The notes under the pieces: model-generated
What the model was told of the DNA's origin: nothing
Seen by the model: the letters and a program-made list of their open reading frames with translations, nothing else
Databases searched by the model: none
Shown here: positions 1,629 through 24,590 of the stretch, in pieces
Layout of the letters: each line of letters opens with the position of its first letter
Position numbering within the stretch: position 1 is the first letter of the stretch
From: Bacteroidales bacterium
GTDB taxonomy: Bacteria; Bacteroidota; Bacteroidia; Bacteroidales; P3
DNA: 33,405 bases
Assembly (NCBI GenBank): GCA_017509045.1
Contig: JAFWQP010000146.1
Span: forward strand, 1-33,405
Direction: 5' to 3'
Made by a program: the position numbers and the translations under genes

Positions 1629-1661
1629 AAATTGAAAAGTGAAAGGTGAAAATTGAAATTG
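1629..1661. repeat. 7-bp tandem repeat in the rnz leader
   Basis: Heptads AAATTGA, AAAGTGA, AAGGTGA and AAATTGA, plus a partial unit, lie a few bases upstream of the rnz ATG. On the mRNA strand they form a pyrimidine-rich leader with no G. A related stretch (about 1710-1735) lies across the end of the next gene upstream. Confidence 0.7.
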
Positions 1662-1724
1662 GTTAAAAATGAAAGATTGAAAATGCCCGCTCCAGCGAGA
1701 TTTCGATTCTCACTTTTTCAACTT

Positions 1725-2900
1725 TCAATTCTCATAATAGATGATGGCACCGCTGGTGGGGTCGAAGAGGGCTTTGAAATGGCGGTGGGGTAGGTCGATG
1801 ACGGGGCCGAACTGGGCAACGGGGAGGGTGACTTGATAGTCGAACAGTTCGCAATGGAGTGAGAGAAGTGCCTGCGAGGGGAGGCGGTATTTGAAACTGT
1901 TGTTGCGCCAGGGGAAGAGACTCTTTTGTGGGCGGCTGTATTGGCGGACGTTCTTGATAGATTGGTCGGGACGCAGGGTGCAGGTGACGGGGAGCGCATC
2001 GTAGTCGTCGCTCTCGCAGATGCCTTCGGCGCGTGAGAAATAGAAGAGGACGGTGCGCTGAAGGGTGTCGCTGTTCTTGCCAGTGAGGTTGGGCTGAAGG
2101 AAGAAGTGGGCAGTCTCGGTGATGGGTTTGCCGATGAACTGGGTGAGTATCTGAGCCTGACGTTCTTCGATTTGGCGAAGCATCTGGGTCTTGCCTTCGG
2201 GGGTGTAGCGGTCGGAAACGGTGATGTCGGCACGGCTGTCCTCGAGTTCGGCAAATTCCTCGGCAGCGGCTTGGGCACGCTGGCGGAGGGAACGGGGTGC
2301 CTTCTTGGTGGAGGTGCCGGTGGGGTGTCCGGGGCGGTCGCCCTTGACATAGAAGGTGTCGGTGCGGTCGTAGAGGTTGTAGGTGGGGAGCATCTTGTCG
2401 GCAGTGGCATTGTGGAGGACTAGTTTGGCATCGGAGGGGGTGAGACGGTCTGTGGTGTCGGTGTAGGAGGTGACGCTGGCGAGGGCGTTGGCGGCCTCCT
2501 GCGGGGTGAGTCCTACTGAGCGCAGGAGTTGGCGGCTGTCGACCTGTACGGAGATGCCGTTGGGGGTGATGAAATAGTAGTGGTCGGGGTCGGCGGTGAC
2601 GTTGTAGGATGCCTCGATGTTTTTGATGCGGTAGGGACGTTCGACGTCGAAGTTGTCGAGGGCGAGCATCTCGGAGGCGTATTGGCTGAAGATGGCTTCG
2701 CTGAGGTCGTAGTACTGATAGGTGACGTCGACGCATATCTGCGTAAATGGCAGGGCATAGAATACTCCGCCGCCGTTGGCCTTGCCAGAGTCGGCATTGA
2801 TGGGGGTGACGGTGTAGCAGCTGGCGAAAAGCAGGGTTGCCACTAAAATAAGTTGAAAGTTGAAGGTTGAAAGTTGAATGTTGTGTAATATTCGTTTCAT
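1725..2900 (-). CDS. DUF4831 family lipoprotein
   Basis: This 391-residue protein begins at the ATG at 2900, five bases after the symporter stop codon. A longer in-frame reading from 2993 would overlap the symporter and lacks a signal sequence at its start. The N-terminus is a lipoprotein signal: basic start, hydrophobic stretch, then LLFASC as the lipobox, so it is probably anchored at the cell surface or in the periplasm. The body matches my memory of DUF4831, a Bacteroidales family of unknown function. Two oddities: part of the signal peptide (STFNF region) is encoded by a 7-bp tandem repeat at 2851-2880, and the last residues and stop (YEN-stop) lie in another copy of the same repeat type. 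Confidence 0.75.
   Translation of the reverse strand: MKRILHNIQLSTFNFQLILVATLLFASCYTVTPINADSGKANGGGVFYALPFTQICVDVTYQYYDLSEAIFSQYASEMLALDNFDVERPYRIKNIEASYNVTADPDHYYFITPNGISVQVDSRQLLRSVGLTPQEAANALASVTSYTDTTDRLTPSDAKLVLHNATADKMLPTYNLYDRTDTFYVKGDRPGHPTGTSTKKAPRSLRQRAQAAAEEFAELEDSRADITVSDRYTPEGKTQMLRQIEERQAQILTQFIGKPITETAHFFLQPNLTGKNSDTLQRTVLFYFSRAEGICESDDYDALPVTCTLRPDQSIKNVRQYSRPQKSLFPWRNNSFKYRLPSQALLSLHCELFDYQVTLPVAQFGPVIDLPHRHFKALFDPTSGAIIYYEN
2851..2880. repeat. 7-bp tandem repeat inside a signal peptide
   Basis: Four heptads (AGTTGAA, AGTTGAA, GGTTGAA, AGTTGAA) lie inside the signal peptide of the DUF4831 lipoprotein, covering about codons 8-17. Confidence 0.75.
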
Positions 2901-2905
2901 GTTGA

Positions 2906-4390
2906 TTATTTTTTTCTGATTAATAAGAGTCCGATAAATGTGATGAGTCCGTTGAGAAGGAGTATTTCGAAGCCGAAATGATAGCCTGTCCACTGAGGCA
3001 TGTAGAGCTTAAGAATATAGCAGATGATGGGGGAGAGGATGGCAATGACGGGGACCCAGCGGTCGCGGACGGTGCGGTGGGTGAAGAGTCCGAAGGTGTA
3101 GAGACCTAGGAGTGGACCGTAGGTGAAGCCGGCGATGTCGAAGAGGGTGTCGATGAGCGACTGGTTGTGGAAGGGTCGGAAGGCGATGATGACTAAGAGA
3201 AAAAGGAAGGCGAAACCGACATGGACGAGGCGTCGGATGGTGAGGGTGGAGAATTGAGAGTGGAGAATTGAGAATTGAGAATTGGTATCTTTTTCGATTT
3301 TGTCGAAATCGAGGAAGTTGTAGCAGAAGGTGGTGGTGAGGGCAGTGAGAGTGCCGTCGGCGCTGGAATAGCCCGCAGCTACCATACCGAGGACGAAGAT
3401 GACGGCGGTGAAGGTGCTGATGTGGAAGGCGACGGAGGGGAATATCTTGTCGCCGACCACGATGCCAGCTTCGTTGACGGGCAGGGGAAAGCCGCTGCTT
3501 TGGCAGTAGGCGATGAGGGCGGCACCGAGGCAGAGGAAGATGATGTTGACAACGATGAAAAGGAGGCTGGATGTGAGCACGTTTTTCTGAGCGGAACGGA
3601 GCGACTTGCAGGAAAGGTTCTTTTGCATCATGTCTTGGTCGAGGCCGGTCATGGTGATGGTGATGAACATGCCGCTAAGGATTTGTTTCCAATAATATTT
3701 GCTGGCGGTGGGGTCGGTCTCGAAGATGCGTGTGTAGCCTGCCTCGGAGGAACGTCGCAGGAGCTGTGGAAGGGTGATGTCGAGCTGTTTGAGAATGGCG
3801 ACGACGGTGACAACGGCGGCAAGGATTAGGAAGGTGGTTTGCAGGGTGTCGGTCCAGACGACGGTTTTGACTCCGCCACGGAAAGTGTAGAGCAGTATGA
3901 TGGCAATGAATATGACTGCCGGTACCCAGAAGGGGATGCCCCATGAGCGGAAGACAAATTCGTACAACACGAATACAACCAAATACATGCGCAGTGCCGA
4001 CCCCATCAAACGCGAAATGAGGAAGAAAGCGGCACCAGTACGTTCGGAGGCTGCGCCGAAGCGTTGGTTGAGGTAGGAGTAGATAGAGGTTACGTTGAGT
4101 TTGTAATATAATGGCAGCAGCACCAAGGCAATGGCGACGTATCCCAACACATATCCGAATACAAGGGGCATATAGGTGAACTGTCCGTAATAGACTCCGC
4201 CTGGGACGGACATGAAGGTGACACCGGAGAGGGAGGCACCAATCATGCCGTAGGCGACCACGAACCAGGGGGACTTGCGTTGTCCACGGAAGAAGGCATC
4301 GTTGCCGGCACCCTTGCGCGACGAGAGCCACATGACCACAAAAAGTAGTGCCGTATAGGCTAGAAAACAGACTAGAATAATTGTTTCCAA
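2906..4390 (-). CDS. sodium:solute symporter (SSS family)
   Basis: This 494-residue membrane protein has about 13 hydrophobic helices and the layout of the SSS family, which couples solute uptake to Na+. The substrate cannot be read from sequence; Bacteroidales relatives are often annotated for sialic acid or sugars. The start is taken as TTG at 4390 because the first helix begins at residue 3 and the next in-frame Met (residue 20) lies inside it. A TATCTTTG -7 box lies about 30 bases upstream. Residues about 369-382, in a polar loop between helices, are encoded by a 7-bp tandem repeat and look like an in-frame insertion. It is probably the first gene of an operon with DUF4831. Confidence 0.88.
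   Translation of the reverse strand: METIILVCFLAYTALLFVVMWLSSRKGAGNDAFFRGQRKSPWFVVAYGMIGASLSGVTFMSVPGGVYYGQFTYMPLVFGYVLGYVAIALVLLPLYYKLNVTSIYSYLNQRFGAASERTGAAFFLISRLMGSALRMYLVVFVLYEFVFRSWGIPFWVPAVIFIAIILLYTFRGGVKTVVWTDTLQTTFLILAAVVTVVAILKQLDITLPQLLRRSSEAGYTRIFETDPTASKYYWKQILSGMFITITMTGLDQDMMQKNLSCKSLRSAQKNVLTSSLLFIVVNIIFLCLGAALIAYCQSSGFPLPVNEAGIVVGDKIFPSVAFHISTFTAVIFVLGMVAAGYSSADGTLTALTTTFCYNFLDFDKIEKDTNSQFSILHSQFSTLTIRRLVHVGFAFLFLLVIIAFRPFHNQSLIDTLFDIAGFTYGPLLGLYTFGLFTHRTVRDRWVPVIAILSPIICYILKLYMPQWTGYHFGFEILLLNGLITFIGLLLIRKK
3244..3285. repeat. 7-bp tandem repeat inside the symporter gene
   Basis: Six heptads (GGGTGGA, GAATTGA, GAGTGGA, GAATTGA, GAATTGA, GAATTGG) cover 42 bp, which is exactly 14 codons. 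They encode the low-complexity stretch SQFSILHSQFSTL. The repeat type is the same one seen in several intergenic spacers. Confidence 0.8.
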
Positions 4391-4418
4391 AATGCTTTTT
4401 TTTGAATTTTTTAGTTTG

Positions 4419-4426
4419 CAAAGATA
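4419..4426 (-). promoter_or_regulatory. -7 promoter element for the symporter operon
   Basis: CAAAGATA on the plus strand is TATCTTTG on the minus strand, about 30 bases upstream of the symporter TTG start. No well-spaced -33 TTTG was found. Confidence 0.6.
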
Positions 4427-4456
4427 CTAAATTTTCCCCAATTGCGTTTTTTTTTG

Positions 4457-4464
4457 TAACTTTG
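4457..4464 (+). promoter_or_regulatory. -7 promoter element for the YD-like gene
   Basis: TAACTTTG matches TAnnTTTG, 64 bases upstream of the ATG at 4529 and divergent from the symporter promoter. The spacer between the two genes is short and AT-rich. Confidence 0.5.
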
Positions 4465-4528
4465 AACTCGCAAAATTGCGTTAAAAAATATTTAAAAGTA
4501 AGTATAATACATTATTGTATAGGTAATT

Positions 4529-5410
4529 ATGAAAATGAAGCAGTTTCTGTCTGTGGTCGTATTCTTGGGTTTGACAGGCTGTTTGGCAGCCCAAAACAAC
4601 GATAATTTGCGCGGACGAATCAACGACAGACCTAATCAGGCGGTGCAGCGTAGAGCCGACGCTCCGACGAAGGTTGACCAACGTATGCCTGACCAGATGT
4701 CGGACTGTCAGCGCGACGGTCTGCACGGCGAGGTGCGCGATGTGATGTCGGTGATGTATGAGGCCAACGAGCGTGCCAATAATGCAGGTCGTGGCAGCAT
4801 CATGGAGCGGCTCAAGACTGTCTACAATCAGAAAGGGCAGCGCCGTAGCCAGTCGTATCTTTCCAATGAGGAGGATATGATATTCAGAACCCGCTACAAA
4901 CATGACGATTTTGGTCTGGTAACGCTGGAACATATCCTTGACCCCGATGAGAACGTGATTGGACGTACCTATTATCTGTATGATGCCGATTTGATTCTCA
5001 CCGAGGTGTATGTGGAGGATGAGGAAAGGCAGATAGAGAGCCGTGTGCTGTATAAATACGACGCACAGGGCCGTGTCAGCCAGTTGAGCTACAACGACCA
5101 TGAGAACAATGTGTTCCGCCGTGAGATTTATATCTATGGCGAGAACGATAACATTTACAAGACGGTGGTATTCAACGGTAAGGGCGACAAGGTGCAGGAA
5201 ATTCGTTATGAATATGACGAGCATAATGAGCCTGTCAGCTCTACCTTGTATGACTATTATGAGGATCCCAACGAGCCAGAGTTGACCATCACGTTATACG
5301 AATATCGCTATGACGAGGAGGGCAACTGGGTGACCCGCTATGAGTATATTCTTGACAACGATAAAAAAATCCCCACCTACATTGTAGAGAGGGATATTAG
5401 ATATTATTAG
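4529..5410 (+). CDS. secreted YD-repeat-like protein
   Basis: This 293-residue protein starts with a signal sequence ending LTGC-LAAQ. LTGC fits a lipobox, so it may be a lipoprotein, though a plain signal peptidase I cut after the Ala is also possible. From about residue 100 onward it has repeated short beta-type units around YKYDAQGRV, YIYGENDNI, YEYDEHNEP and YEYRYDEEGNW, the pattern of RHS/YD-like repeats in Bacteroidales surface proteins. No enzymatic motif is visible. It has its own promoter and a Rho-independent terminator downstream, so it is probably a single-gene unit. The function is unknown. Confidence 0.75.
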   Translation: MKMKQFLSVVVFLGLTGCLAAQNNDNLRGRINDRPNQAVQRRADAPTKVDQRMPDQMSDCQRDGLHGEVRDVMSVMYEANERANNAGRGSIMERLKTVYNQKGQRRSQSYLSNEEDMIFRTRYKHDDFGLVTLEHILDPDENVIGRTYYLYDADLILTEVYVEDEERQIESRVLYKYDAQGRVSQLSYNDHENNVFRREIYIYGENDNIYKTVVFNGKGDKVQEIRYEYDEHNEPVSSTLYDYYEDPNEPELTITLYEYRYDEEGNWVTRYEYILDNDKKIPTYIVERDIRYY

Positions 5411-5415
5411 AAAAT

Positions 5416-5436
5416 TACGCCTTCCCGTCAGGCGTA
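5416..5436 (+). other. small hairpin after the YD-like gene
   Basis: TACGCC (5416-5421) pairs with GGCGTA (5431-5436) just after the stop codon. No T-run follows it; it may protect the mRNA 3' end upstream of the main terminator. Confidence 0.35.
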
Positions 5437-5460
5437 TAAACTGTCGTTTTTCATTTTTCC

Positions 5461-5494
5461 CCCGTAATGCTTGCAAAAGTGTTACGGGTTTTTT
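5461..5494 (+). terminator. Rho-independent terminator
   Basis: CCCGTAA (5461-5467) pairs with TTACGGG (5482-5488), followed by six or more T residues. It terminates the YD-like gene upstream. Confidence 0.75.
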
Positions 5495-5512
5495 ACTACT
5501 AGGGAATGATTA

Positions 5513-5675
5513 GAAGCTGTTTAAATTTGATTGATGAATTTTATTATGGACATGAACGAGCAGATTTTTCGCCTTTCCGAGGGCGCAATGGGGTTCCATT
5601 GTAACTGAGGAAAGGTAAAAAATATGCCGTTCAGGTGCTTTAAGAAAATCATTAAATTAAATTTTAAACAGCTTC
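5513..5675. mobile_element. MITE-like element abutting the era stop codon
   Basis: This 163-bp element is bounded by roughly 31-bp imperfect inverted repeats. The left one begins GAAGCTGTTTAAA; the right one ends TTTAAACAGCTTC. TTA flanks both sides (5510-5512 and 5676-5678), as expected for a 3-bp target duplication. The right TTA is also the era stop codon read on the minus strand. Inside, CCTTTCC (5572-5578) pairs with GGAAAGG (5609-5615) and CAATGG (5586-5591) with CCATTG (5596-5601), so the whole element can fold as one long hairpin. It carries no transposase. A 20-codon frame at 5546-5608 is the only open frame inside. Confidence 0.65.
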
Positions 5676-6554
5676 TTAGTCGCACTCATAGCCGAACTGG
5701 CGGAGGGCACGGTCGCTGTTGCGCCAGTCTTTCATAACCTTGACGTAGAGGTTTAGGAAACATTTCTTGCCAGTGAATTCCTCGATGTCTTTGCGGGCTT
5801 CGATGCCGACTTTTTTAATGGACATGCCCTTGTGCCCGATGAGAATGGCACGCTGCGACTCGCGTTCGACAAAGATGACAGCGCCGATGTTGTCGATGCC
5901 GTCCTTTTCCTCGTAACTCTCCACAGCCACTTCGCAGCTGTAGGGTATTTCTTTCTGATAATAGAGTAGCAGTTTCTCGCGTATTATCTCGCTGACGAAG
6001 AATCGCATCGAGCGGTCGGTGAGCTCGTCCTTGGGGAAATAGGGAGGATTTTCGGGCAGCTGTTCGATGATGTGGTCGAAGATGGTGTCGATGTTGAATC
6101 GTTCGGTGGCAGAAGCGGGCACGATGATGGCACGGGGTATTTGGTTCTGCCAATAGGCAATCTTGTCACGGATGGTCTGCTGGTCGCTGAGGTCAATCTT
6201 GTTGATGACAAGGATGACGGGAATGTTGGAGCGGATAATTTTTGCCAGCACCTCCTGATTCTTGAAGGTCTCGCCAATCTCGGTGACGAGCAGGAAGAGG
6301 TCGGCATCTTCGAGGGCGCTCTTGACGAAGCCCATCATCTGTTCGTGCAGTTTGTAATGGGGGTTGACGATACCGGGGGTGTCGGTGTATACGATTTGGA
6401 AATCGTCGCCGTTGACGATGCCCATGATGCGGTGGCGCGTGGTTTGTGCCTTGCTGGTGATGATGCTTAGTTTCTCGCCTACCAGCGCGTTCATAAGGGT
6501 CGATTTCCCCACGTTGGGGTTGCCGATGATATTGACGAATCCTGCTTTATGCAT
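5676..6554 (-). CDS. era: GTPase Era
   Basis: This essential GTPase binds 16S rRNA near its 3' end and acts in 30S assembly. The 292-aa length is standard. The P-loop GNPNVGKST is at residues 11-19, the G3 motif DTPG at 58-61 and NKID at about 118-121. The C-terminal third is a KH RNA-binding domain, with GHKGMSIKKVG as its GXXG-type loop. It is the last gene of the prs-rplY-era run. The leader directly before the ATG is a pyrimidine-rich heptad repeat, and the stop codon lies at the edge of a MITE-like element. Confidence 0.97.
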   Translation of the reverse strand: MHKAGFVNIIGNPNVGKSTLMNALVGEKLSIITSKAQTTRHRIMGIVNGDDFQIVYTDTPGIVNPHYKLHEQMMGFVKSALEDADLFLLVTEIGETFKNQEVLAKIIRSNIPVILVINKIDLSDQQTIRDKIAYWQNQIPRAIIVPASATERFNIDTIFDHIIEQLPENPPYFPKDELTDRSMRFFVSEIIREKLLLYYQKEIPYSCEVAVESYEEKDGIDNIGAVIFVERESQRAILIGHKGMSIKKVGIEARKDIEEFTGKKCFLNLYVKVMKDWRNSDRALRQFGYECD

Positions 6555-6557
6555 AAT

Positions 6558-6638
6558 GTGAAAAGTGAAAAAGTAAAAACTAGAAACTAAAACATGGTCG
6601 GCAAATGCTTAGACCAAGTTTTAGTTTCTAGTTTCTAC
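6558..6638. repeat. heptad repeats forming a long hairpin between rplY and era
   Basis: Heptads (GTGAAAA twice, AGTAAAA, ACTAGAA, ACTAAAA) run away from the era start. Their end forms a 27-bp arm (6573-6599) that is complementary, with two mismatches, to 6612-6638, leaving a 12-nt loop. In mRNA this would be a strong hairpin between rplY and era that could uncouple them. It has no U-run of the classical terminator type. Confidence 0.7.
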
Positions 6639-6657
6639 TTTCTAGTTAATACCAAGG

Positions 6658-7239
6658 TTATTCAGCCTCGACAACCTCGTTGGCGCCAGTAGCAGCAGCA
6701 CGGGTGCTGTTGATAACGACCACCTCGCTGCTCTTGGGGTTGAGGATTTCGTAGTTGTTGGTGGCAACATCCTGCACCTTGCAACGCTGGGCAACATCAA
6801 GGTTGGTAATGTCGATAAGAATCTCGCTGGGCATGTTGGCGGGGAGAGCCTTCACGTTGAGTCTCTTCTGCTTGTAAGCCAGCTTACCACCCTTCATCAC
6901 GCCGACGGAGGTGCCGGTGGTGTGGACGGGGATGGACATGACGATGGGCTTGTCGTCGCTCAGTTCGTAGAAGTCGCAGTGGTACACGATTTCGGTCACG
7001 GGGTGGAATTCGATGTCCTTCAGCATGGCGCGATGCTTGGTGCCGTTGAGGTCGATTTCAACGAAGCAAGGCTCCGGATTGAAAAGGATGCGCTGGAAGC
7101 TGGTTTGAGGAACGGAGAAGAGATACTGCTCGCCTTTACCATACATAACGCACGGCACTTTGTCTTCACGACGCAGAGCCTTAGCATCTTTTTTCCCTAC
7201 GTTCTCGCGGAGAGAACCGCTCAATGATACTATTCTCAT
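6658..7239 (-). CDS. rplY: 50S ribosomal protein L25/Ctc
   Basis: This 193-aa protein is the long two-domain form: an N-terminal L25 domain that binds 5S rRNA (about residues 1-90) and a C-terminal TL5/Ctc domain (about 95-180). The family pattern is clear: the start SLSGSLRENVGKKDAKALRR, then VPCVMYG, and the later VMSIPVHTTGTSVGVMKGG and LPANMPSEI segments. An alanine/glutamate-rich tail ends the protein. It lies between prs and era on the same strand; proximity of prs and rplY is common in bacteria. A GC-rich palindrome lies upstream. Confidence 0.95.
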   Translation of the reverse strand: MRIVSLSGSLRENVGKKDAKALRREDKVPCVMYGKGEQYLFSVPQTSFQRILFNPEPCFVEIDLNGTKHRAMLKDIEFHPVTEIVYHCDFYELSDDKPIVMSIPVHTTGTSVGVMKGGKLAYKQKRLNVKALPANMPSEILIDITNLDVAQRCKVQDVATNNYEILNPKSSEVVVINSTRAAATGANEVVEAE

Positions 7240-7257
7240 TTTTGTTTGTGATTTTTT

Positions 7258-7270
7258 GGGGCTAAGCCCC
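7258..7270. other. GC-rich palindrome upstream of rplY
   Basis: GGGGCTAAGCCCC can form a short tight hairpin in the 95-bp spacer between prs and rplY. On the minus (gene) strand it is followed by A residues, not T, so it is not a standard terminator for prs. It could be an RNA processing or regulatory site in the rplY leader. Confidence 0.4.
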
Positions 7271-7334
7271 GGGTTAATGAATATGTATTAATTAAAAAAT
7301 GTAAGCATGGTTAATTACCGGCGAAGGCGCTCCA

Positions 7335-8315: not shown

Positions 8316-8336
8316 TTTATGTTGATTTTGAGGTTG

Positions 8337-8443: not shown

Positions 8444-8529
8444 GCCCGGGTGGCGGAATGGTAGACGCGGTAGACTCAAAATCTGCTGTCCGCAAGGACG
8501 TGTGGGTTCGATACCCACCCCGGGTACCA
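8444..8529 (+). tRNA. tRNA-Leu (anticodon CAA)
   Basis: An 86-nt tRNA with the long variable arm of class II tRNAs. The acceptor stem GCCCGGG pairs with CCCGGGT (one G-U at the end). The anticodon stem-loop reads GTAGA-CTCAAAA-TCTGC, giving anticodon CAA for the UUG codon. The T-arm GTGGGTTCGATACCCAC is perfect, and the 3' CCA is encoded (8527-8529). A palindromic terminator follows immediately. Confidence 0.95.
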
Positions 8530-8532
8530 AAT

Positions 8533-8565: not shown

Positions 8566-8654
8566 CAACCATTGTACGAATGTGTGAATGTGTTGACGTA
8601 TAAAGTTCAACTTGTCGAGGATACCCTTGACATTAAAATAAATACCAATTAGAT

Positions 8655-8688
8655 TGTGTGACACTTTTTGTCCCAAAGGAGTGTCACA
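8655..8688. terminator. hairpin between tRNA-Leu and the WYL gene
   Basis: GTGTGACAC (8655-8663) and GTGTCACAC (8680-8688) form a perfect 9-bp stem just past the stop codon of the WYL gene. Neither side has a long T-run, so termination strength is uncertain. It may end the minus-strand WYL transcript. Confidence 0.45.
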
Positions 8689-8698
8689 CGTCTTATTT

Positions 8699-9619
8699 CT
8701 ATTGTGGGTCTGTTGTATTGTACTTATTCAACATTTCAGAGAGGTTGGCTTGTATTTCCTTTCGGAAGGCTGCTGGAGCAAGAACCTCGGCATGAATGTT
8801 CATCGTCAGGATTTCCTGTTTCAGGTCGTAGGTCGGCTTTACAAACAAAGAGAAAATGGAGTATTCTGGCGTGCGTTCCACTTCTTCTTGCGATTTGTGC
8901 AGAGGAAGGCTCCGCAGATACTTGGCTTGCCACTCATCTGCTTTAATGAGAATGGTTTGCGGCTCGTCTTTAACTGTAACATACGCTCCGAATGTGCCGA
9001 AAAAGACAGCCTCGGCATCAAAGTCCTCTGGTAATCGGAAGATCTGTCCGGTCGGTTCAACATCACAGATACGGTCGAGGGAGAAGATACGCATGCCCCT
9101 TTTTGGCACACTTCCATACACATACCAGCGACGTTTGTACATTTTGAGCGTCCACGGCTGGAAGTCGTTATATTGGTTTACAACATCTTTGTCAAAGGGA
9201 TGGTATTGGAAGTTCACCGTGATATTTTCTCGCATGGCGGCCAACAGAGGAATGAGTGCCGGTGTCGTTGACGGCACTTCTTCAAGGAGTATACGGTCAC
9301 GCAGGCGGTCGTTGGCGGCAATGGTGTTGTTGAGTGAAATGGTTTCAAGGAGCCACTTGCGTAAATAGCTATGGCTTTTGATGTCATCCGTGTCGCGGAT
9401 GTAATATCGGTTGTCTGAACGATTGCAGACAATCTCAATACCAAATAGTTCCTCTACAACTTTGCGATGGTCATGGAAGGTGCGCAGCGCATACTCGCCA
9501 CCATTTGAGATGCTGTCGTTGTAACGATATTTGTCGTTTATCTCCTCAAATGTCAGACCCCTCTGCCCAGCACGGACAAGGGTGTCTACAAGCCAGATAT
9601 AGCGGTTAAGAGTATTCAT
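8699..9619 (-). CDS. WYL-domain transcriptional regulator
   Basis: This 306-residue protein has an N-terminal winged-helix region (about 1-75, beginning NTLNRYIWLVDTLVRAGQRGLTF) and a WYL-type ligand domain (about 125-215). In the latter, PWTLKMYKRRWYVYG and RIFSLDRICDVEPTG are the characteristic segments; the name motif reads WYV here. The C-terminal part resembles the WCX extension. WYL proteins sense nucleic acids or nucleotides and often control defence genes (for example BrxR/CapW types). The start codon overlaps the stop of the upstream DUF3883-like gene as ATGA, so the two are translationally coupled and probably share the promoter at 10563. Confidence 0.88.
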   Translation of the reverse strand: MNTLNRYIWLVDTLVRAGQRGLTFEEINDKYRYNDSISNGGEYALRTFHDHRKVVEELFGIEIVCNRSDNRYYIRDTDDIKSHSYLRKWLLETISLNNTIAANDRLRDRILLEEVPSTTPALIPLLAAMRENITVNFQYHPFDKDVVNQYNDFQPWTLKMYKRRWYVYGSVPKRGMRIFSLDRICDVEPTGQIFRLPEDFDAEAVFFGTFGAYVTVKDEPQTILIKADEWQAKYLRSLPLHKSQEEVERTPEYSIFSLFVKPTYDLKQEILTMNIHAEVLAPAAFRKEIQANLSEMLNKYNTTDPQ

Positions 9620-16697: not shown

Positions 16698-16710
16698 AGG
16701 ATTTGGTTTT

Positions 16711-16764
16711 ACTAGTTATACTAGTCATACTAGTTTTTCTAGTAATACTAGTAGTACCAGTTTT
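16711..16764. repeat. 9-bp tandem repeat in the helicase leader
   Basis: Six 9-bp units run without gaps: ACTAGTTAT, ACTAGTCAT, ACTAGTTTT, TCTAGTAAT, ACTAGTAGT, ACCAGTTTT. They fill most of the 71-bp spacer between nadE and the helicase. Each unit contains the SpeI-like palindrome ACTAGT or a near match. Confidence 0.85.
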
Positions 16765-18325: not shown

Positions 18326-18332
18326 CTCTACT

Positions 18333-18361
18333 AAGAATTAAAAATTAAGAATTAATAAATT
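18333..18361. repeat. 7-bp tandem repeat in the nadE leader
   Basis: AAGAATT, AAAAATT, AAGAATT and a longer last unit lie just upstream of the nadE ATG and form a G-poor leader on its mRNA. Confidence 0.65.
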
Positions 18362-18392
18362 ATTGCCGTCGGAGGCATTCCACTTGGACGTG

Positions 18393-18400
18393 CAAAAATA
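18393..18400 (-). promoter_or_regulatory. -7 promoter element for nadE
   Basis: CAAAAATA on plus is TATTTTTG on minus, about 68 bases upstream of the nadE ATG. The heptad repeat lies between the two. Confidence 0.55.
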
Positions 18401-18441
18401 CTACTTTTTTGTGAAATTTCAAGTGTAAAATCAATATTTAA

Positions 18442-18472
18442 TTTGCAATTATGATTTTTTTATGTATTTTTG
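18442..18472 (+). promoter_or_regulatory. strong promoter for the outer-membrane-type gene
   Basis: TTTG (18442-18445), a 19-nt spacer and TATTTTTG (18465-18472) form a full consensus. About 60 nt of A/T-rich leader follow before the ATG at 18539. Confidence 0.75.
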
Positions 18473-18538
18473 CATTTCAAAATAGAAAGAAACGCTAATT
18501 AATAATTTTTTAATAACATTTTAAAAATCAACAACATT

Positions 18539-18997
18539 ATGAAGAAAATCGTCGTACTAGTCGTGGCAGTCTTTGCCCTTGGTTTCGCAGCTAATGCTCA
18601 GGATGCTCTTGGTCTCCGTTTCGGTGGCGGTTCCAGCTATGGCGCTGAACTCTCCTATCAGAAAGGTATGGGTGGAAACCGTATGGAATTCGATTTAGGC
18701 ATGCGCCTCAAATCCGAGTCCAATTTCTTCTATCTGGCTGGTGTCTATCAGTGGCAGGGTCAGATTACCGATTGGCTGGGTTGGTTTGCCGGTCCTGGTG
18801 TCAAGGTGAGCTATTGCGTCAACCACGGTGTTGGTCTCGCCCTTGCTGGTCAGGCTGGTCTTGAGGCTAACTTTGCAGACTTCCCCTTCCAGTTCACCCT
18901 CGATATCCGTCCGGAATACGAGTTCATCCTCCCCGCAGGCTGTGTGAACAACTTCGGCTGGGGTCTTGCTCTCGGCATCCGCTACAAGCTCAACTAA
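18539..18997 (+). CDS. small outer-membrane beta-barrel-type protein
   Basis: This 152-residue protein has a classical signal peptide (cleavage after AANA, before QDA). The rest is alternating hydrophobic/aromatic strands rich in Gly (LGLRFGGGSSYGAELSYQKG, then FEFDLGMRLK-type strands) and ends in a strand with aromatic and basic residues (GLALGIRYKLN). That is typical of small eight-strand barrels of the outer membrane. The consensus promoter, efficient terminator and codon use suggest high expression. The precise function is unknown. Confidence 0.75.
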   Translation: MKKIVVLVVAVFALGFAANAQDALGLRFGGGSSYGAELSYQKGMGGNRMEFDLGMRLKSESNFFYLAGVYQWQGQITDWLGWFAGPGVKVSYCVNHGVGLALAGQAGLEANFADFPFQFTLDIRPEYEFILPAGCVNNFGWGLALGIRYKLN

Positions 18998-19026
18998 TTT
19001 TGTTGGGCTGTAGCCAACATAGTCCT

Positions 19027-19060
19027 AAAATGCCCGGCAGATATGTCGGGCATTTTCTTT
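19027..19060 (+). terminator. Rho-independent terminator
   Basis: AAAATGCCCG (19027-19036) is perfectly complementary to CGGGCATTTT (19047-19056), with more T residues following. It ends the outer-membrane-type gene. Confidence 0.85.
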
Positions 19061-19143
19061 GTCCTTTCCCCGCTAACCGAAGTCTTTTTGGGAGAAGTGT
19101 GCATGTGCTGTAGTGCCCTAGTGGTTCCCTTACTTATCCTATC

Positions 19144-19234
19144 GTTATACCTTAGTTATACTTTAGTTATACCTTAGTTATTCTATTATATATAGTATAA
19201 CTGAGGTATAACTAAAGTATAACTAAGGTATAAC
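19144..19234. repeat. 38-bp-arm palindrome made of 11-bp tandem repeats
   Basis: The left arm (19144-19181) is made of GTTATACCTTA, GTTATACTTTA, GTTATACCTTA and GTTAT, a period of 11 bp. The right arm (19197-19234) is its reverse complement with a single mismatch; the loop is 15 nt. It lies between a plus-strand terminator and the end of the minus-strand SDR gene. The flanking 19061-19143 and 19235-19356 hold no gene that I can see. Confidence 0.85.
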
Positions 19235-19356
19235 AATAAAAGGGAGGGGAGATGCGTTGGGTAGTGAAATGAGGAGAAGGAAAGGGTTGTATTTGGATGT
19301 GGAAAAATTTGTTTGTCAATAATTTATTTGTTGCTTAGTTGCACTGATGGGCAGTC

Positions 19357-20136
19357 TTAAAGATAGTTTTTTAGTAGTTCCTCGGTCTCGTTCCATAGCC
19401 AGCGGGATGTGTTGGGATGCTGCCAGCGGTGGGGGACGGAGAGGTGGCGGTCGCCGCGGAAGAGGAATAGCGGGTTGCCATAGTTGGCTTTGAAAAGAAG
19501 GGCGTGAATGGCGGGTTTGGCTCCTTTTTTAGGACTCTTGCAGAAGGGGCGGAATACGAGGTCGGCGATGGGGTCGAACCAGCGGTTGAGGTGCAGGATG
19601 CGGCTGTTGACGATGCCTGGGTCGGTGACATGCACTGTGATATGTTCCCCGTAGCGGCGGTGAAGCTCTTCGGAAAAGAGCATCACGGCCATTTTGCTGT
19701 TGGCGTAGGTGCCAATTTGACGGTATTTGTCGGGATTGGGGTGGAGGAAGTCTGGGTCGAGGTGCGCCACGTAGCACGAGAGGGAGACGGTGTTGACCAC
19801 GTGTGCGCCGGGATTCATCAACGGCAGCAGTCGGCGGGTGAGGAGGTAGGGGCCGAGATAATTGGTGGCAATGACGCGCTCGAACCCATCGGGAGTGGTT
19901 TCGTAGTGGGGCAGTTGGGTGCCGGCATTATTGAGCAGTCCGTCGATACGGATTCCGTCGGCTTCTAGTCCTTGGACAAAGGCCTCGATGGAGGCGGGAG
20001 AACTGACGTCAAGAGAGCGGAAACCTTCGTGTTCGGCTCGACGCGAGGTGCCGATGACGGTGTGGCCAAGGGCGCGAAGTTGTTCTACTGCGGCGGAGCC
20101 GATAGCTCCTGTGGCTCCTGTTACTATGATGACCAT
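19357..20136 (-). CDS. short-chain dehydrogenase/reductase (SDR)
   Basis: This 259-residue NAD(P)-dependent oxidoreductase has the dinucleotide motif TGATGAIG near the N-terminus, NNAG at about 69-72, the catalytic Ser in TVSLS and the YANSK (YxxxK) motif. It is closest in style to the retinol-dehydrogenase/WWOX-like branch (KMAVMLFSEELHRR, TDPGIVNS). The substrate is unknown. Its ATG lies three bases after the stop codon of the second SDR, so they are co-transcribed. The leader is an 8-bp tandem repeat that also encodes the end of the upstream protein. Confidence 0.85.
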   Translation of the reverse strand: MVIIVTGATGAIGSAAVEQLRALGHTVIGTSRRAEHEGFRSLDVSSPASIEAFVQGLEADGIRIDGLLNNAGTQLPHYETTPDGFERVIATNYLGPYLLTRRLLPLMNPGAHVVNTVSLSCYVAHLDPDFLHPNPDKYRQIGTYANSKMAVMLFSEELHRRYGEHITVHVTDPGIVNSRILHLNRWFDPIADLVFRPFCKSPKKGAKPAIHALLFKANYGNPLFLFRGDRHLSVPHRWQHPNTSRWLWNETEELLKNYL

Positions 20137-20139
20137 GGG

Positions 20140-20937
20140 TTATTGTTTGATTGTTTGAATGTTTGATTGTTTGAGTTTCAGTTTTTGCCAAATGTGGGTT
20201 TCTAGGCGGTTGGGGAGAAGTTTTACCAGTATGGGTACTAGGTAGTTCATGATTCCGGGTTTGACGTAATGACGATGGCGGAACATGCCACGAAGGGCGC
20301 GGCGGACAAGCCATTGTGGAGAGCGGATGATGCCAAGACGGGTGAGGAGGGATTGTGTCTTGGGATTGAGGTTGTAGAGTGGAGTGGCGACGGCGGCGGG
20401 CAGCACAGTGGTGACACCCACGCCGTAGGGACGCATCTCGAAGTAGAGCGACTTGGAGTAGCTTTTCAGATAAGCCTTGGTGGCGGCATAAAGGGTAATG
20501 CCCGGAGCTGGAATCTGTGCGGTGAGGCTGGAAACGTTGAGGATGTAGCCTTGGCGGCGAAGTTTCATATCTTCGCCAAAGAGGGCACAGAGTCGGGTGG
20601 GGGTGAGCACGTGTAGGGCAAGCATGGCTTCAGAGCGGTCGGCATAATCAGGGGTGAGTTCGTGGAAGAAGAACATGCCTGCATTGTTGATAAGGATGTC
20701 TATCTTTAGGCCTTGTTGGCAGCACCAGTCGTAGAGTTGCCGTGCGGCATCGGGGGTGGCGAGGTCTTGGTAGCGGCCTATGGCATTGATGCCGTATTGT
20801 TGGGAGAGTTGGGTGGGGAGAATGTCGAGCAACTCTTGTTGGTTGGAGACCATGACGAGATTATGCCCGCGCAGCGCGAGCTGTCGGCAGTATTCAAGGC
20901 CCATGCCCGAGGTGGCTCCAGTGACGAGTGCTAGCAT
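20140..20937 (-). CDS. short-chain dehydrogenase/reductase (SDR)
   Basis: This 265-residue oxidoreductase has the TGATSGMG nucleotide motif near the N-terminus, NNAG at about 85-88, the catalytic Ser in NVSSL and YAATK (YxxxK). The YSKSLYFEMRPYGVGVTTVLP segment is typical of classical SDRs of the DltE/YqjQ kind. After the core, a basic C-terminal tail ends KLKLKQSNIQTIKQ; its last residues are encoded by an 8-bp tandem repeat. The substrate is unknown. It is first in a two-gene SDR operon, with a heptad repeat in its own leader. Confidence 0.85.
   Translation of the reverse strand: MLALVTGATSGMGLEYCRQLALRGHNLVMVSNQQELLDILPTQLSQQYGINAIGRYQDLATPDAARQLYDWCCQQGLKIDILINNAGMFFFHELTPDYADRSEAMLALHVLTPTRLCALFGEDMKLRRQGYILNVSSLTAQIPAPGITLYAATKAYLKSYSKSLYFEMRPYGVGVTTVLPAAVATPLYNLNPKTQSLLTRLGIIRSPQWLVRRALRGMFRHRHYVKPGIMNYLVPILVKLLPNRLETHIWQKLKLKQSNIQTIKQ
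20143..20176. repeat. 8-bp tandem repeat between the SDR genes
   Basis: ATTGTTTG, ATTGTTTG, AATGTTTG, ATTGTTTG and a partial unit cover the C-terminal codons of one SDR and the leader of the next. Confidence 0.7.
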
Positions 20938-20948
20938 TTTTTTTTGAA

Positions 20949-20976
20949 GTGAGAATTAAGAACTATGAACTAAGCG
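20949..20976. repeat. 7-bp degenerate repeat in the SDR leader
   Basis: GTGAGAA, TTAAGAA, CTATGAA and CTAAGCG follow a 7-bp period a few bases upstream of the second SDR's ATG. Confidence 0.5.
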
Positions 20977-20998
20977 TTTTTCCCCCCACATCTTTATT

Positions 20999-21691
20999 TT
21001 AGGCAAGGTCGAGGGCGCGTTCGATAAAACGGTTGAGCGGAACGGTGGCCTTCCACACTTTGACGACGTGGTCGAAGAATTGGTCGGAACCGATGATTTT
21101 CTTAGGCATGGTGTGCATACTGCAATAGTCGCGATATTTAAGCAGGTCGATGTCGGGCCAGTCGGCGGGGTATCCCTTGGGTGGGCGGCTAAGCTTGCGG
21201 CTGGTGAAGAAGCTGTCGCCATAATAGCGGTGATAGTCCTTTTGTGCCAAGATGGCCTTAAACTCGTCGGGACAGTAGAATATCTCCTGCCGTATGGCGG
21301 CGAGTTGTGCAGGCGAGGGCATAAAGATGCCTCCGCCGAGAGAGCAGCCACCGTCGAGACCGTAGTCGCCCTGACCTAGTTGCAGATAATAGCCGGGTAC
21401 GCACTGTGTGCGGTCGCCGCCGACAGGGAGGAAGCAGGCGATGTGGGTCTTATAGGGACGTTTGTCGGTGGTGAAACGCAAGTCGCGATAGATGCGGTAG
21501 ACGCATTGCTTGGCCTGTAGGTTGCCCAAGGCGGGGTCGAGAGGAGTCATCACGTCGATAAGCGCCTGTGTGAACTCCACAAATTGGTCGCGGATAGCTG
21601 TCCAGCGCGACTTGTTGTCGTTGAACCAGTCGCGGTTGTTATTTACTAACAAGTCGTCGAAAAATGGGAGGGTATCAGGATGTATATTCAT
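20999..21691 (-). CDS. DUF2461 family protein
   Basis: This 230-residue cytoplasmic protein matches DUF2461 (TIGR02453): LPFFDDLLVNNNRDWFNDNK at the start, then RIYRDLRFTTDKRPYKTHIA, GYYLQL and GGGIFMP. The family is widespread and of unknown function. The last residues carry the usual helical end. The gene is the first of a minus-strand group with the SDR pair (61 bp between them) and diverges from the MFS gene. Its -7 box lies inside the spacer of the MFS promoter. Confidence 0.88.
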   Translation of the reverse strand: MNIHPDTLPFFDDLLVNNNRDWFNDNKSRWTAIRDQFVEFTQALIDVMTPLDPALGNLQAKQCVYRIYRDLRFTTDKRPYKTHIACFLPVGGDRTQCVPGYYLQLGQGDYGLDGGCSLGGGIFMPSPAQLAAIRQEIFYCPDEFKAILAQKDYHRYYGDSFFTSRKLSRPPKGYPADWPDIDLLKYRDYCSMHTMPKKIIGSDQFFDHVVKVWKATVPLNRFIERALDLA

Positions 21692-21717
21692 TAAATTTTA
21701 AGAATTGTTTGTTTGGA

Positions 21718-21750
21718 TTTGCAAAAATACAAAAAATATTCGTATCTTTG
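21718..21750. promoter_or_regulatory. interleaved divergent promoters (MFS and DUF2461)
   Basis: On the plus strand, TTTG (21718-21721), a 21-nt spacer and TATCTTTG (21743-21750) drive the MFS gene. On the minus strand, TATTTTTG (21722-21729, CAAAAATA on plus) drives DUF2461. The minus -7 box lies inside the plus spacer. Confidence 0.65.
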
Positions 21751-21794
21751 CATCCTCATTTGAGAAAAAAACACAAATTAAAATTAGTTATACT

Positions 21795-23432
21795 ATGACA
21801 GAAACAGTTAAAACTCTCCGCGACAGCGCCGCCATGCGATGGATTGCGCTGTTGCTGCTGGCACTGGCTATGTTTTGCAGCTATGTGTTCATGGACATTC
21901 TTTCGCCAATCAAAGACCTGATGCAAGACACCCGTGGTTGGGATAGTGCCTCGTTCGGCCGTATGCAGGGTGCTGAGGTGTTCCTCAACGTCTATGTGTT
22001 TTTCCTTATCTTTGCGGGTATTATCCTCGACAAGATGGGTGTGCGTTTCACGGCGGTGCTTTCAGGCGCTGTGATGTTATTTGGCGGCATTATCAAGTTC
22101 TACGCTGTCAGCGATGCCTTTATGGGAACGGGCATTGAGGCTTGGTTTACCAACCACTTAAACTGGAATGGTGATTTGCCGGTCATCGGCGCTATTCTGC
22201 CGTTTGTGGCAGGTATGCCTGCGTCAGCTAAGTTGGCCGCGCTCGGTTTCATGTTCTTTGGATGTGGCTGCGAGATGGCTGGTATCACGGTGAGCCGCGG
22301 TATTGTGAAGTGGTTCAAGGGCCGCGAGACAGCTCTTGCTATGGGCTCTGAGATGGCTTTGGCACGTCTGGGTGTTGCCACCTGCATGATTTTTTCGCCC
22401 TACTTTGCCAAACTGGGTGGTGAGGTGCATGTTGACAATGCCGTGAAGTTCGGCGTGGTGCTGCTTTGCATCGCCCTTATTATGTTCATTACCTATTTCT
22501 TCATGGACAAGAAACTCGACAGCCAAACTGGCGAGGCTGAAGAGAAGGACGACCCGTTTAAGCTCAGCGATTTGGGCAAGATTTTCACCAGCCTTGGTTT
22601 CTGGCTCGTTGCCCTGCTGTGTGTGCTCTACTATAGTGCTATCTTCCCCTTCCAAAAGTATGCTGTGAACATGTTGCAGTGCAATCTGACACTCAATCCT
22701 GCTGACCCCTCCACTTATTGGGGAGGAAGCACAGAGGCATTCAGTGTCTCCGTCACTTGGGTTCAGTATATTATTATGCTGGTGGTAGCAATCTGCTCGT
22801 TTGCTAGCAACTTCTCCAAGAAGAAGGGTATGAAAGTCGGCCTTATGGCTTTGGCTGTTGTGGCATTGGTGGTTTATTGCTATATGGGCTACATGCGTGG
22901 CACGGCTGAGACCATTTTTGCCGTGTTCCCCCTGCTGGCTGTGGCCATTACTCCTATTTTGGGCAACTATGTCGACCATAAGGGTAAGGCTGCCTCGATG
23001 TTGATGCTTGGCTCCATTCTGTTGGTCATCTGCCACCTCACCTTCGCCTTTATCCTGCCTGCCTTCAAGGGTAATGCAGTGGGCGGCACAATCGTGGCAT
23101 ACGTCACCATCCTCGTGTTGGGAGCAAGCTTCTCACTGGTTCCCGCAGCCCTTTGGCCCTCTGTGCCTAAGCTGGTTGACGAAAAGATAATCGGTTCAGC
23201 TTATGCCGCTATCTTCTGGATTCAGAATATCGGCCTTGGCCTCTTCCCCGCCCTCATCGGTATTGTGCTTAACAAGACCAACGAGGCTGGTACCGCAGCA
23301 CACGAGCTTAACTACACATGGGCACTTGTCATGCTGGCGGCCCTCGGTATTGCAGCTCTGCTTATCTCTGTCTACCTCAGGGCAGTCGATAAGAAGAAAG
23401 GCTACGGTCTCGAAGAACCGAATATTAAATAA
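21795..23432 (+). CDS. MFS transporter
   Basis: This 545-residue membrane protein has about 12 helices and a polar central loop (about residues 235-265, KLDSQTGEAEEKDDPFKLSD). The start is ATG 21795; an upstream in-frame reading from 21705 would run through the promoter. The family-style segments are IILDKMGVRFTAVLSGAVML after the second helix and the late FSLVPAALWPSVPKLVDEK. It resembles Bacteroidales MFS proteins of the nitrate/oxalate-type branch. The substrate cannot be assigned. A hairpin made of heptad repeats separates it from the aldo-keto reductase. Confidence 0.85.
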   Translation: MTETVKTLRDSAAMRWIALLLLALAMFCSYVFMDILSPIKDLMQDTRGWDSASFGRMQGAEVFLNVYVFFLIFAGIILDKMGVRFTAVLSGAVMLFGGIIKFYAVSDAFMGTGIEAWFTNHLNWNGDLPVIGAILPFVAGMPASAKLAALGFMFFGCGCEMAGITVSRGIVKWFKGRETALAMGSEMALARLGVATCMIFSPYFAKLGGEVHVDNAVKFGVVLLCIALIMFITYFFMDKKLDSQTGEAEEKDDPFKLSDLGKIFTSLGFWLVALLCVLYYSAIFPFQKYAVNMLQCNLTLNPADPSTYWGGSTEAFSVSVTWVQYIIMLVVAICSFASNFSKKKGMKVGLMALAVVALVVYCYMGYMRGTAETIFAVFPLLAVAITPILGNYVDHKGKAASMLMLGSILLVICHLTFAFILPAFKGNAVGGTIVAYVTILVLGASFSLVPAALWPSVPKLVDEKIIGSAYAAIFWIQNIGLGLFPALIGIVLNKTNEAGTAAHELNYTWALVMLAALGIAALLISVYLRAVDKKKGYGLEEPNIK

Positions 23433-23444
23433 TAAACCATAAAG

Positions 23445-23521
23445 CAGAAACTAAAAACTAAAAGGTATTAGCCAGGGGCAAAGCCTTTTAGTTTTTAGTT
23501 CTTTTACCTTTTACTTTTTTG
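23445..23521. repeat. heptad repeats forming a hairpin between the MFS and AKR genes
   Basis: AACTAAAAACTAAAAGG (23449-23465) is perfectly complementary to CCTTTTAGTTTTTAGTT (23484-23500). Pyrimidine heptads continue to within a few bases of the AKR ATG. The construction matches the hairpin between rplY and era. Confidence 0.7.
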
Positions 23522-23524
23522 AAA

Positions 23525-24562
23525 ATGGATACAGTTACTTTAGGTCGCACAGGATTGGTGGTGCCGAAGAACGGTTTCGGCGCACTGCCCATACAGCGCA
23601 TCAGTCTTGCCGAGACTGTCCACCTGCTGCATAAGGCCTTGGACCACGGCATGTATTATTTCGACACCGCCCGATTCTATACCGACAGCGAGGAAAAGCT
23701 TGGCGCAGCCTTTGGCGACCGTCGCGACAAGGTGATAATTAGCACCAAGACCGGTGCCACTAAGGTGGAGGATTTTTGGAAACAGCTGGAAACCAGCCTG
23801 CGCCTAATGAAGACCGACTATGTAGACCTCTACCAGTTTCACAACCTGCCGTTCTGTCCCAAACCGGGCGACGGCACGGGGTTGTATGAGGCAATGCTAG
23901 AGGCTAAGGAGCAGGGCAAGATACGCCACATAGGCTTGACTAACCACCGCATGGCGGTGGCTCGCGAGGCTATCGAAAGCGGACTATATGAAACGCTGCA
24001 GTTCCCCTTCTCCTACCTTGCCAATGAGGAGGAACATGCTTTGGCTGAGAGCTGTCGTGACCACGATATGGGCTTTATCGCCATGAAAGGTCTGGCGGGT
24101 GGCCTCATCAACCATGCTGCCACAGCCTACGCCTATCTTGCACAGTTCCCTTATGTGGAGCCTATTTGGGGCATACAGCGCGAAAGCGAGTTGGACGAGT
24201 TTATCTCGTTCCAAGATAATCCGCCTGAGCTGACCGACGAGATGCGCGCCCGCATTGAGAAAGACCGCAAGGAACTATGTGGCGATTTCTGCCGTGGTTG
24301 CGGCTATTGCCAGCCCTGCACGGTGGGCATCGAGATTGAGAGCTGCAACAGGATGTACCTCTTCCTGCGTCGCGCACCCTACAACGTATATCTCACCGAC
24401 GAGTTTAACGAGAAGATGCAGAAGGTGAACGACTGTGTGGAGTGCGGCCTCTGCAAAGAACGCTGCCCCTACCACCTAGACATACCTACCCTGTTGAAGC
24501 GCAACCTTGAGGACTTCAACGAGCACTGGGCTCATCGGGATGAATTCAGAATTGAGAATTAA
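23525..24562 (+). CDS. aldo-keto reductase with C-terminal 4Fe-4S domain
   Basis: This 345-residue protein joins an aldo-keto reductase barrel to a ferredoxin-like end. The ATG at 23525 is chosen over the in-frame TTG two codons earlier. The AKR tetrad is recognisable: Asp and Tyr in YFDTARFYTDSEEKLG, Lys in IISTKTG and His in LYQFHN. The C-terminal domain has two cysteine clusters, CGDFCRGCGYCQPC and CVECGLCKERCPYH, that can bind 4Fe-4S clusters. Such proteins are common in anaerobes; the substrate is unknown. The last residues (FRIEN) and stop are encoded by a GAGAATT heptad-type repeat. Confidence 0.9.
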   Translation: MDTVTLGRTGLVVPKNGFGALPIQRISLAETVHLLHKALDHGMYYFDTARFYTDSEEKLGAAFGDRRDKVIISTKTGATKVEDFWKQLETSLRLMKTDYVDLYQFHNLPFCPKPGDGTGLYEAMLEAKEQGKIRHIGLTNHRMAVAREAIESGLYETLQFPFSYLANEEEHALAESCRDHDMGFIAMKGLAGGLINHAATAYAYLAQFPYVEPIWGIQRESELDEFISFQDNPPELTDEMRARIEKDRKELCGDFCRGCGYCQPCTVGIEIESCNRMYLFLRRAPYNVYLTDEFNEKMQKVNDCVECGLCKERCPYHLDIPTLLKRNLEDFNEHWAHRDEFRIEN

Positions 24563-24590
24563 TGATTGTTTGATTGCTTGATTGTTTGAG
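24554..24590. repeat. GAGAATT end repeat and 8-bp tandem repeat after the AKR gene
   Basis: GAATTGAGAATTAA supplies the last codons and stop. It is followed by GATTGTTT, GATTGCTT, GATTGTTT, an 8-bp period like that between the SDR genes. Confidence 0.6.

Follow-up and report, generated by a model that had tools for sequence, protein, structure and literature searches.

Short repeats that recur between bacterial genes, and in some cases inside them, have been described in several systems. Rickettsia palindromic elements (RPEs) are about 150 bp long, and nearly half of them lie within open reading frames (ORFs); these short palindromes, of which one genome carries several families, occur in spacers and in frame in unrelated housekeeping genes, and the review that describes them calls their frequency in Rickettsia unusually high (PMC10969869). 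Repetitive extragenic palindromes (REPs) of the GTAG and CGTC types are hairpin modules of 20-40 bp, as described there without tandem-repeat arms, which are located mainly in spacers and sometimes within genes, the CGTC type being found in Bacteroidetes (PMC3733652). Heptameric short tandem repeats (STRs), studied in Calothrix, Xanthomonas (unit GGGAATC) and Nostoc (unit GGGGATT), vary between related species; heptameric repeats are reported as over-represented in many bacteria, and a polymerase-footprint idea has been put forward for them (PMC4692102). Here we analyzed the short-period tandem arrays of positions 1 to 33,405 of contig JAFWQP010000146.1 from a Bacteroidales bacterium (GCA_017509045.1), a stretch referred to as the window, together with further stretches of the same genome and of its relatives. 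We put the probability at roughly 55% that these arrays are part of short, mosaic, partly palindromic elements, numerous in this genome and less dense in other species of the genus.

Abundance, periods and architecture of the arrays

The genome (G000) is a draft of 2.71 Mb in 154 contigs. The sample comprised the window and 60 other stretches, 61 in all, amounting to 799 kb including 14 kb of N; the stretches were picked by contig number without regard to repeat content and are not strictly random. Genes were called by our own script with adjusted starts, which gave 611 genes and 126.8 kb of intergenic DNA, and arrays were called by Tandem Repeats Finder (TRF) at score 30 unless stated. Among named records, those nearest to this genome are Bacteroidales metagenome assemblies, many of them from the rumen and other gut sites. 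The relatives are coded G0xx, with G006 as the closest one, and each species is represented by one genome.

TRF reported 567 arrays in the sampled intergenic DNA versus a mean of 31.8 in ten order-3 Markov sets; the window alone gave 37 rows. The periods were strongly preferred: at score 40, the intergenic sample contained 111 arrays of period 7, 39 of period 8, 21 of period 9, 2 of period 10, 59 of period 11 and 11 of period 12. A TRF-free count of exact-period runs of at least 13 yielded 63, 17, 2, 0, 33 and 3 for the same periods, with 0-0.2 in simulations. Among 80 nadE-region loci of relatives, coding sequence included, the corresponding numbers were 61, 27, 21, 4, 54 and 27, the same few periods being built from units other than those found here. 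In both sets, period 10 is absent or scarce although its neighbors 7-9 and 11 are frequent, and this gap gives a hint of how the arrays are made. The depletion is weaker in 21 other genomes of the genus (433 kb; 33, 12, 12, 8 and 33 arrays of periods 7 to 11) than in G000.

In a comparison covering this genus and other families of the order, arrays of 7 bp numbered 165 in the 799 kb of G000 and 33 in the 433 kb of the 21 other genus genomes, and a single one was present in the 316 kb taken from 13 genomes of those other families. A phylum-wide repeat was rejected, as an exact 21-mer of the GAGAATT array was present in only 3 of 296 genomes including its own, a draw that held just two other genomes of the same order. 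The linker TTGGCTGCCGCACC was present in 7 of 59 genus genomes, again counting its own. Within G000, unit families recur at many loci. A sequence-only reading of the window had proposed that independent repeats at several spacers reflect either function or a shared generating process; the latter proposal gains weight from the unit families common to many loci and from the same few periods appearing with other units in relatives.

We compared the orientation of neighboring arrays less than 80 bp apart, leaving groups of one or two pairs outside the breakdown. Heptad pairs (n=54) were arranged as purine-core-pyrimidine in 34 cases and in the reverse order in 1, with 13 pointing the same way and 6 unclear, and 11-mer pairs (n=21) as pyrimidine-core-purine in 16 and the reverse in none, with 5 others. 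Pairs of 12-mers and of mixed periods were few or mixed (mixed, co-directional: 11 vs 2). The heptad and 11-mer orders are the same whether the flanking genes are co-directional, convergent or divergent. An inverted repeat reads alike on both strands, so the arm order belongs to the element itself rather than to transcription; an orientation set by transcription had been suggested first and was, for the pairs, replaced by the fixed arm order. In a typical heptad element, a purine-rich 7-bp array is followed by a core and then by a pyrimidine-rich array in inverted orientation. The order is the opposite in the 11-bp elements, and the 8-bp arrays and many single arrays have no detected partner.

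Some of the sequences between the arms recur. The linker TTGGCTGCCGC has 23 copies in the sample, 17 of them intergenic, and adjoins heptad arrays among the 14 matches listed. Modules such as AACTTCTTAGTTCATAGTTCTTACTTC also recur, with the order of unit variants kept as judged by eye, and some cores are found repeatedly, such as TTGGCTGCCGC(ACCCGG) and one with CCCCTCTAAAGAGGGG, while others are unique. The elements measured range from about 70 to 230 bp, and some copies fold strongly among the intergenic ones, which made up the folding set.

The sequence-only reading had noted that the arrays are mostly G-poor on the mRNA strand. In paired heptads this lean is accounted for by the fixed arm order; arrays without a detected partner lean too and are not covered by it. 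Unpaired arrays were purine rather than pyrimidine by 59:17 near stops and pyrimidine rather than purine by 37:13 near starts, and array-free spacers had no comparable skew (0.53 and 0.51 purine). The stop-side bias is not an artefact of ORFs crossing pyrimidine arrays, as 9 of 9 arrays within 90 nt of an ORF end read purine. Inspection by eye also raised the possibility that selection keeps a stop codon in each purine heptad.

Copies inside genes and at individual junctions

Arrays of the same kind also lie within called ORFs. Among 48 arrays centered in ORFs (periods 7, 8, 11 and multiples, score at least 36), 29 lay in the middle, 10 at the N-terminal and 9 at the C-terminal part, and some of the 29 look like chance. 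Clear in-frame cases were found in RlmN, CinA, MtaB (our name for a UPF0004/radical-SAM protein), TatD, alpha-2-macroglobulin, an M16 peptidase, PrmA, aminopeptidase P and the sodium:solute symporter of the window. Some cores recur both between and inside genes: that of the RlmN insert has 16 matches in the sample (at least 60% of its length, itself included), 6 in coding sequence (CDS) and 10 intergenic, and for the right-hand core of the CinA insert there are 4 matches, itself included, 3 of them in CDS. A long insert peptide, FSTLRKASEEGKSQDLHYSEPKQCLEEILNSQF, is common to CinA and MtaB, and similar inserts occur in TatD of G000 and RlmN of G006 (SETSQERASQDLNNFNF / SEISREQTSQDSDNFNF). Another recurrent module, with a CCCCTCTAAAGAGGGG palindrome, was seen in genes and spacers (L032, L062, L078, L086 and several intergenic places) and is translated in frame as HTPVFDHPSKEGTG in two genes.

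In comparison with solved structures, RlmN matched in residues 29-121 and 153-400 and CinA in residues 1-133 and 217-463 of the query, the inserts lying mostly or wholly outside the matched parts; the host loops are probably surface loops that tolerate additions. In several relatives, RlmN and CinA are without such inserts. In RlmN, G000 has a loop of 43 aa and G006 a 30-aa loop that belongs to a different type; the loop measures 3-19 aa in the 13 other genus genomes that were read, and five genomes from other families have 7-27 aa (the 27 aa being those of G032). For CinA, 11 of 17 loci were readable (G005, G013, G002, G029, G030 and G026 were unread): the loop is 77 aa in G000; in six others it spans 18-36 aa and contains repeats or palindromes of various sequence, and in G003, G008, G009 and G015 it has 5-6 aa, so that 7 of the 11 genus genomes read have a loop of at least 18 aa. 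Five further CinA and three further RlmN loci, from other families, lay outside this loop comparison. In G012 and G004 (L272, L274), the CinA loop carries a different in-frame palindrome with the peptide LTPSPSP.GEG. Predicted proteins of such genomes can contain repeat-derived peptides, for example NSQFSILNSQF.

All seven arrays named by the sequence-only reading were visible at or near their positions in the window, each close to an ATG. Six pass TRF score 30, and the one at about 20949 consists of four degenerate heptads below TRF reporting. The heptad element between the lipoprotein gene and rnz (1629..1736) fills its spacer and comprises, on the + strand, a purine array called by TRF (1629-1684), a core (approximately 1685-1711) and a pyrimidine arm (approximately 1712-1736), the arms being delimited by eye. 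It folds weakly (z -2.4; 3 of 200 shuffles fold equally well). Its core has four further matches in the 61-stretch sample, two of them in CDS (TatD in L071; L086:10223), and the match inside TatD ties this array to the in-frame copies. Between rplY and era, a heptad hairpin at 6570..6641 has arms at 6570-6599 and 6612-6641 (TRF arrays 6561-6592 and 6617-6647; z -9.4), and between the MFS and AKR genes another one at 23448..23519 has arms at 23449-23465 and 23484-23500, with pyrimidine heptads up to the AKR start (TRF arrays 23448-23463 and 23486-23519; z -3.6). The nadE-helicase spacer carries a 9-bp array of the near-palindromic TACTAGTAA-type unit (16706..16764 by TRF; z -5.5).

The expectation of an unstructured leader at the named sites is contradicted by the era, AKR and helicase spacers, which fold well above chance, and weakly by that of rnz. 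It is compatible with the other three: the single-arm 7-bp TRF array before nadE (18332..18362; z +1.2), the 8-bp TRF array on the - strand that codes for the C-terminal tail of SDR2 just before SDR1 (20142..20174; z +1.2) and the degenerate heptads before SDR2 (20945..20975, recognized by eye and not reported by TRF at score 30; z -0.9).

The window contains further arrays of this kind, all called by TRF. On the - strand, a heptad array forms N-terminal codons of the DUF4831 lipoprotein gene (2850..2883), and an in-frame heptad array encodes the peptide NSQFSILHSQFSTL in a variable loop of the sodium:solute symporter (3241..3284). The symporter loop of G002 also has a heptad-type peptide (KFSIFNFQFSIL), and a clean insertion in the window's gene is not shown, the loop being variable among the aligned relatives. 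An 11-bp pyrimidine-core-purine hairpin lies between two convergent genes (19128..19238; TRF array 19128-19234; z -11.5). On the + strand, heptads form the last AKR codons (FRIEN) and are followed by an 8-bp array behind the AKR stop (24542..24589).

Junctions differ between species. In G006, the lipoprotein-rnz, rplY-era and MFS-AKR junctions retain hairpins of similar length; at the SDR2-SDR1 junction, the 8-bp array found here is matched by a 7-bp array, and the array before nadE is absent. The latter was not seen in the six relatives compared. The nadE-helicase and DUF-SDR2 junctions are not simply comparable with those of G006; in relatives the nadE-helicase spacer has other arrays or none, and no TACTAGTAA-type unit was seen by eye in the orthologous spacers compared. 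Folding of the rplY-era spacer from six genus members gave a stem-loop in each (z -4.8 to -9.4).

Two other features of the window were recorded. Long imperfect inverted repeats at 355-385/436-466 and 452-477/567-592 surround CCCAAATCGG (window 355-600), a 10-mer with 29 copies in the intergenic sample and none in coding sequence, which represents another dispersed element. A tRNA-Leu gene with anticodon caa is located at 8444-8529.

Placement relative to genes and rival explanations

The placement of arrays directly upstream of starts, taken by the sequence-only reading as the recurring pattern, did not extend to the genome sample. Of 211 arrays in co-directional spacers no shorter than 60 bp, 46 (22%) lay at most 20 nt from a start, where random placement gives 18%, and 69 (33%) at most 50 nt from it (random 41%), near random at the shorter distance and below it at the longer one. 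The proposed check, enrichment in the 50 bp before starts, returned no enrichment in this sample, and in the comparison with random placement a start-codon rule is not supported. A small excess was seen 0-10 nt before starts (26 vs 17.9 expected), with a deficit at 20-50 nt. Relative to stops, 59 of the 211 arrays lay within 20 nt (28%; random 18%) and 92 within 50 nt (44%; random 40%). Arrays were present in 130 of 370 spacers between co-directional genes, in 25 of 53 between convergent genes and in 28 of 63 between divergent ones; among spacers of 60-200 bp, they were present in 71 of 131 co-directional versus 4 of 26 divergent ones. Within the window itself, arrays of the same kind also occur inside genes, between convergent genes and at or behind gene ends. 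Repeats adjoining start codons need not be regulatory.

These observations are consistent with mosaic elements whose copies persist where harm would be small, namely in co-directional and convergent spacers, at gene ends and in in-frame enzyme loops. Recurrent copies may have spread as elements, their arm length may change by slippage or hairpin-templated synthesis, and arrays near starts would be tolerated rather than selected to tune translation.

Several results weigh against mosaic elements as a general account. Octad neighbor pairs included none in opposite order (0 of 19). In a stricter complementarity test (without G-U), only 47 of 222 co-directional arrays had a partner and 149 had none; inverted partners were found for 22 of 121 heptad, 9 of 47 octad and 11 of 24 11-mer arrays. 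A search for hidden partner arms pointed in the expected direction without reaching significance (p 0.19 with 9 spacers and p 0.26 with 6), and the purine orientation of unpaired arrays within 15 nt of stops (42:5) is unaccounted for. The rplY-era and MFS-AKR cores have no second copy in the sample, which leaves possible local growth, and three of the seven named sites are unstructured. The host loops vary in relatives that lack the element, and empty sites are accordingly not letter-exact; three genus CinA loci unread by the pattern have gaps of 12, 21 and 39 nt, i.e., look short, which brings the share with a loop of at least 18 aa to 7 of 14. No target-site duplication was seen at the RlmN and CinA loci examined. 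The genome has two Y1 transposase genes (PF01797, the sole transposase family searched); no mobilizer was identified in this search, and no 7-bp arrays lie around the two genes.

The hairpins could instead be intercistronic terminators or mRNA-end stabilizers that are built from repeats and kept for that job, which we consider unlikely as the main explanation. The position of the rplY-era stem-loop is kept in six genus members while its sequence changes: the hairpins of G006, G017, G021 and G018 are diverged in sequence, G020 has a GC stem-loop with a T-run, and plain stem-loops were seen by eye in G003 and G011. Both where this stem-loop lies and how it folds agree with an intrinsic terminator. 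The consensus fold of five repeat-type sequences has 21 pairs, 4 of them changed on both sides, but the covariation term over the five aligned sequences is unfavorable (+2.48), which makes this fold weak evidence. Classical GC terminators are fewer in spacers with arrays (5 of 105 vs 16 of 88, p 0.004), and hairpins also stand between convergent genes. However, the motif TAnnTTTG, which we take to be the Bacteroidetes -7 element, was found in 11 of 94 array spacers versus 16 of 71 others (p 0.09), which suggests read-through into many of the downstream genes. The transcript strand folds no better than its complement, which was more stable in 32 of 44 one-array spacers; selection on sense-strand RNA was rejected on this ground. 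Elements also lie in ORFs and before divergent genes. A side role of mosaic elements as intercistronic hairpins is possible.

Plain microsatellites, originating locally and growing by polymerase slippage with neither dispersal nor function, are a doubtful alternative. Different units of the same few periods in different species agree with slippage, as do the 11-mer units, most of which were found once among those listed, the unique era and AKR cores, the majority of arrays without partners, the octads without inverted order and the reported abundance of heptameric repeats across bacteria (PMC4692102). Slippage alone leaves unexplained the inverted pairs with fixed arm order, the recurrent linkers and cores, the ordered unit variants seen by eye at several loci and the skipped period 10 of this genome.

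Selected translation-leader elements whose copy number tunes expression are very improbable: arrays touch several starts in the window, with the excess at 0-10 nt, the pyrimidine orientation near starts (29:13) and the three unstructured sites in their favor, but there is no overall enrichment before starts, short divergent spacers, which hold two starts each, contain arrays less often, a fold is seen at four of the seven named sites, and at several junctions in relatives the arrays are replaced by other repeats or nothing, so that a general leader role is not supported.

Comparison with known repeat systems

No account of these elements in Bacteroidales was found in the literature, as far as titles and abstract openings go and with subscription papers mostly outside the search. 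Heptameric STRs share the 7-bp arrays in spacers, and in Xanthomonas also inverted pairs, but are described as one G-rich unit type per genome (PMC4692102); here, many AT-rich units of several periods are joined to recurrent cores and have in-frame copies. The BrickBuilt miniature inverted-repeat transposable element (MITE) of Porphyromonas gingivalis likewise has tandem repeats inside an inverted-repeat element of Bacteroidales but differs by its 23-bp unit, its 19 places in one strain and an always intergenic location, as described (PMC4596501). With regard to MITEs in general, inverted arms are present here, no duplication was seen at the RlmN and CinA loci and one transposase family was searched. 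Archaeal Borg repeats are likewise fast-evolving, A-rich tandem repeats of spacers and ORFs, yet they are perfect, have in-ORF units divisible by three, are nearly all unique in sequence and are not described as dispersed palindromes in that account (PMC9879509).

A recurrent core here contains CGTCCCCTCTTTAGAGGGG, seen by eye, which is reminiscent of CGTC REPs; those have a stem of 8-9 bp and a loop of 4-5 nt, whereas the CGTCCCCTCTTTAGAGGGG core has a 7-bp stem and a shorter loop as judged by eye. We found no link to mobilization by REP-associated tyrosine transposases (RAYTs), as neither of the two Y1 genes is flanked by the 7-bp arrays. Around one Y1 gene there are 9- and 11-mer arrays and other palindromes. 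At this locus (L213; G000 contig C78, gene 8650-8994), the Y1 gene of IS200/RAYT type lies between tandem copies of a palindrome with units of approximately 50-68 bp containing ACCCCTACGGGGTA / TACCCCGTAGGGGT, and an 11-mer hairpin and 9-bp arrays are nearby; it looks like a REPtron in a Bacteroidales genome. Its palindromes differ from the elements described here.

RPEs are the closest in kind. As in RPEs, the same repeat family is found here in spacers and in frame in unrelated protein genes, and inserts are absent from orthologues, the RlmN and CinA loops being short in several genus members at sites that are not letter-exact. The elements described here differ from RPEs in belonging to Bacteroidales and in having arms made of 7- or 11-bp tandem arrays whose length varies. 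By being tolerated in frame the elements would resemble RPEs as a kind, and common descent is not claimed. A bolder proposal, which we hold only tentatively, is that a gut Bacteroidales lineage carries a distinct class of translated palindromic elements, in which the arms come from a repeat-making process stepping 7, 8 and 11 (here not 10) and different elements enter the same tolerant loop of a housekeeping enzyme in different species. Rickettsia offers the best-known examples of in-frame palindromes in housekeeping genes; another such lineage, rich in species and with turnover that can be seen, would permit comparative tests of how such elements spread and how they affect proteins.

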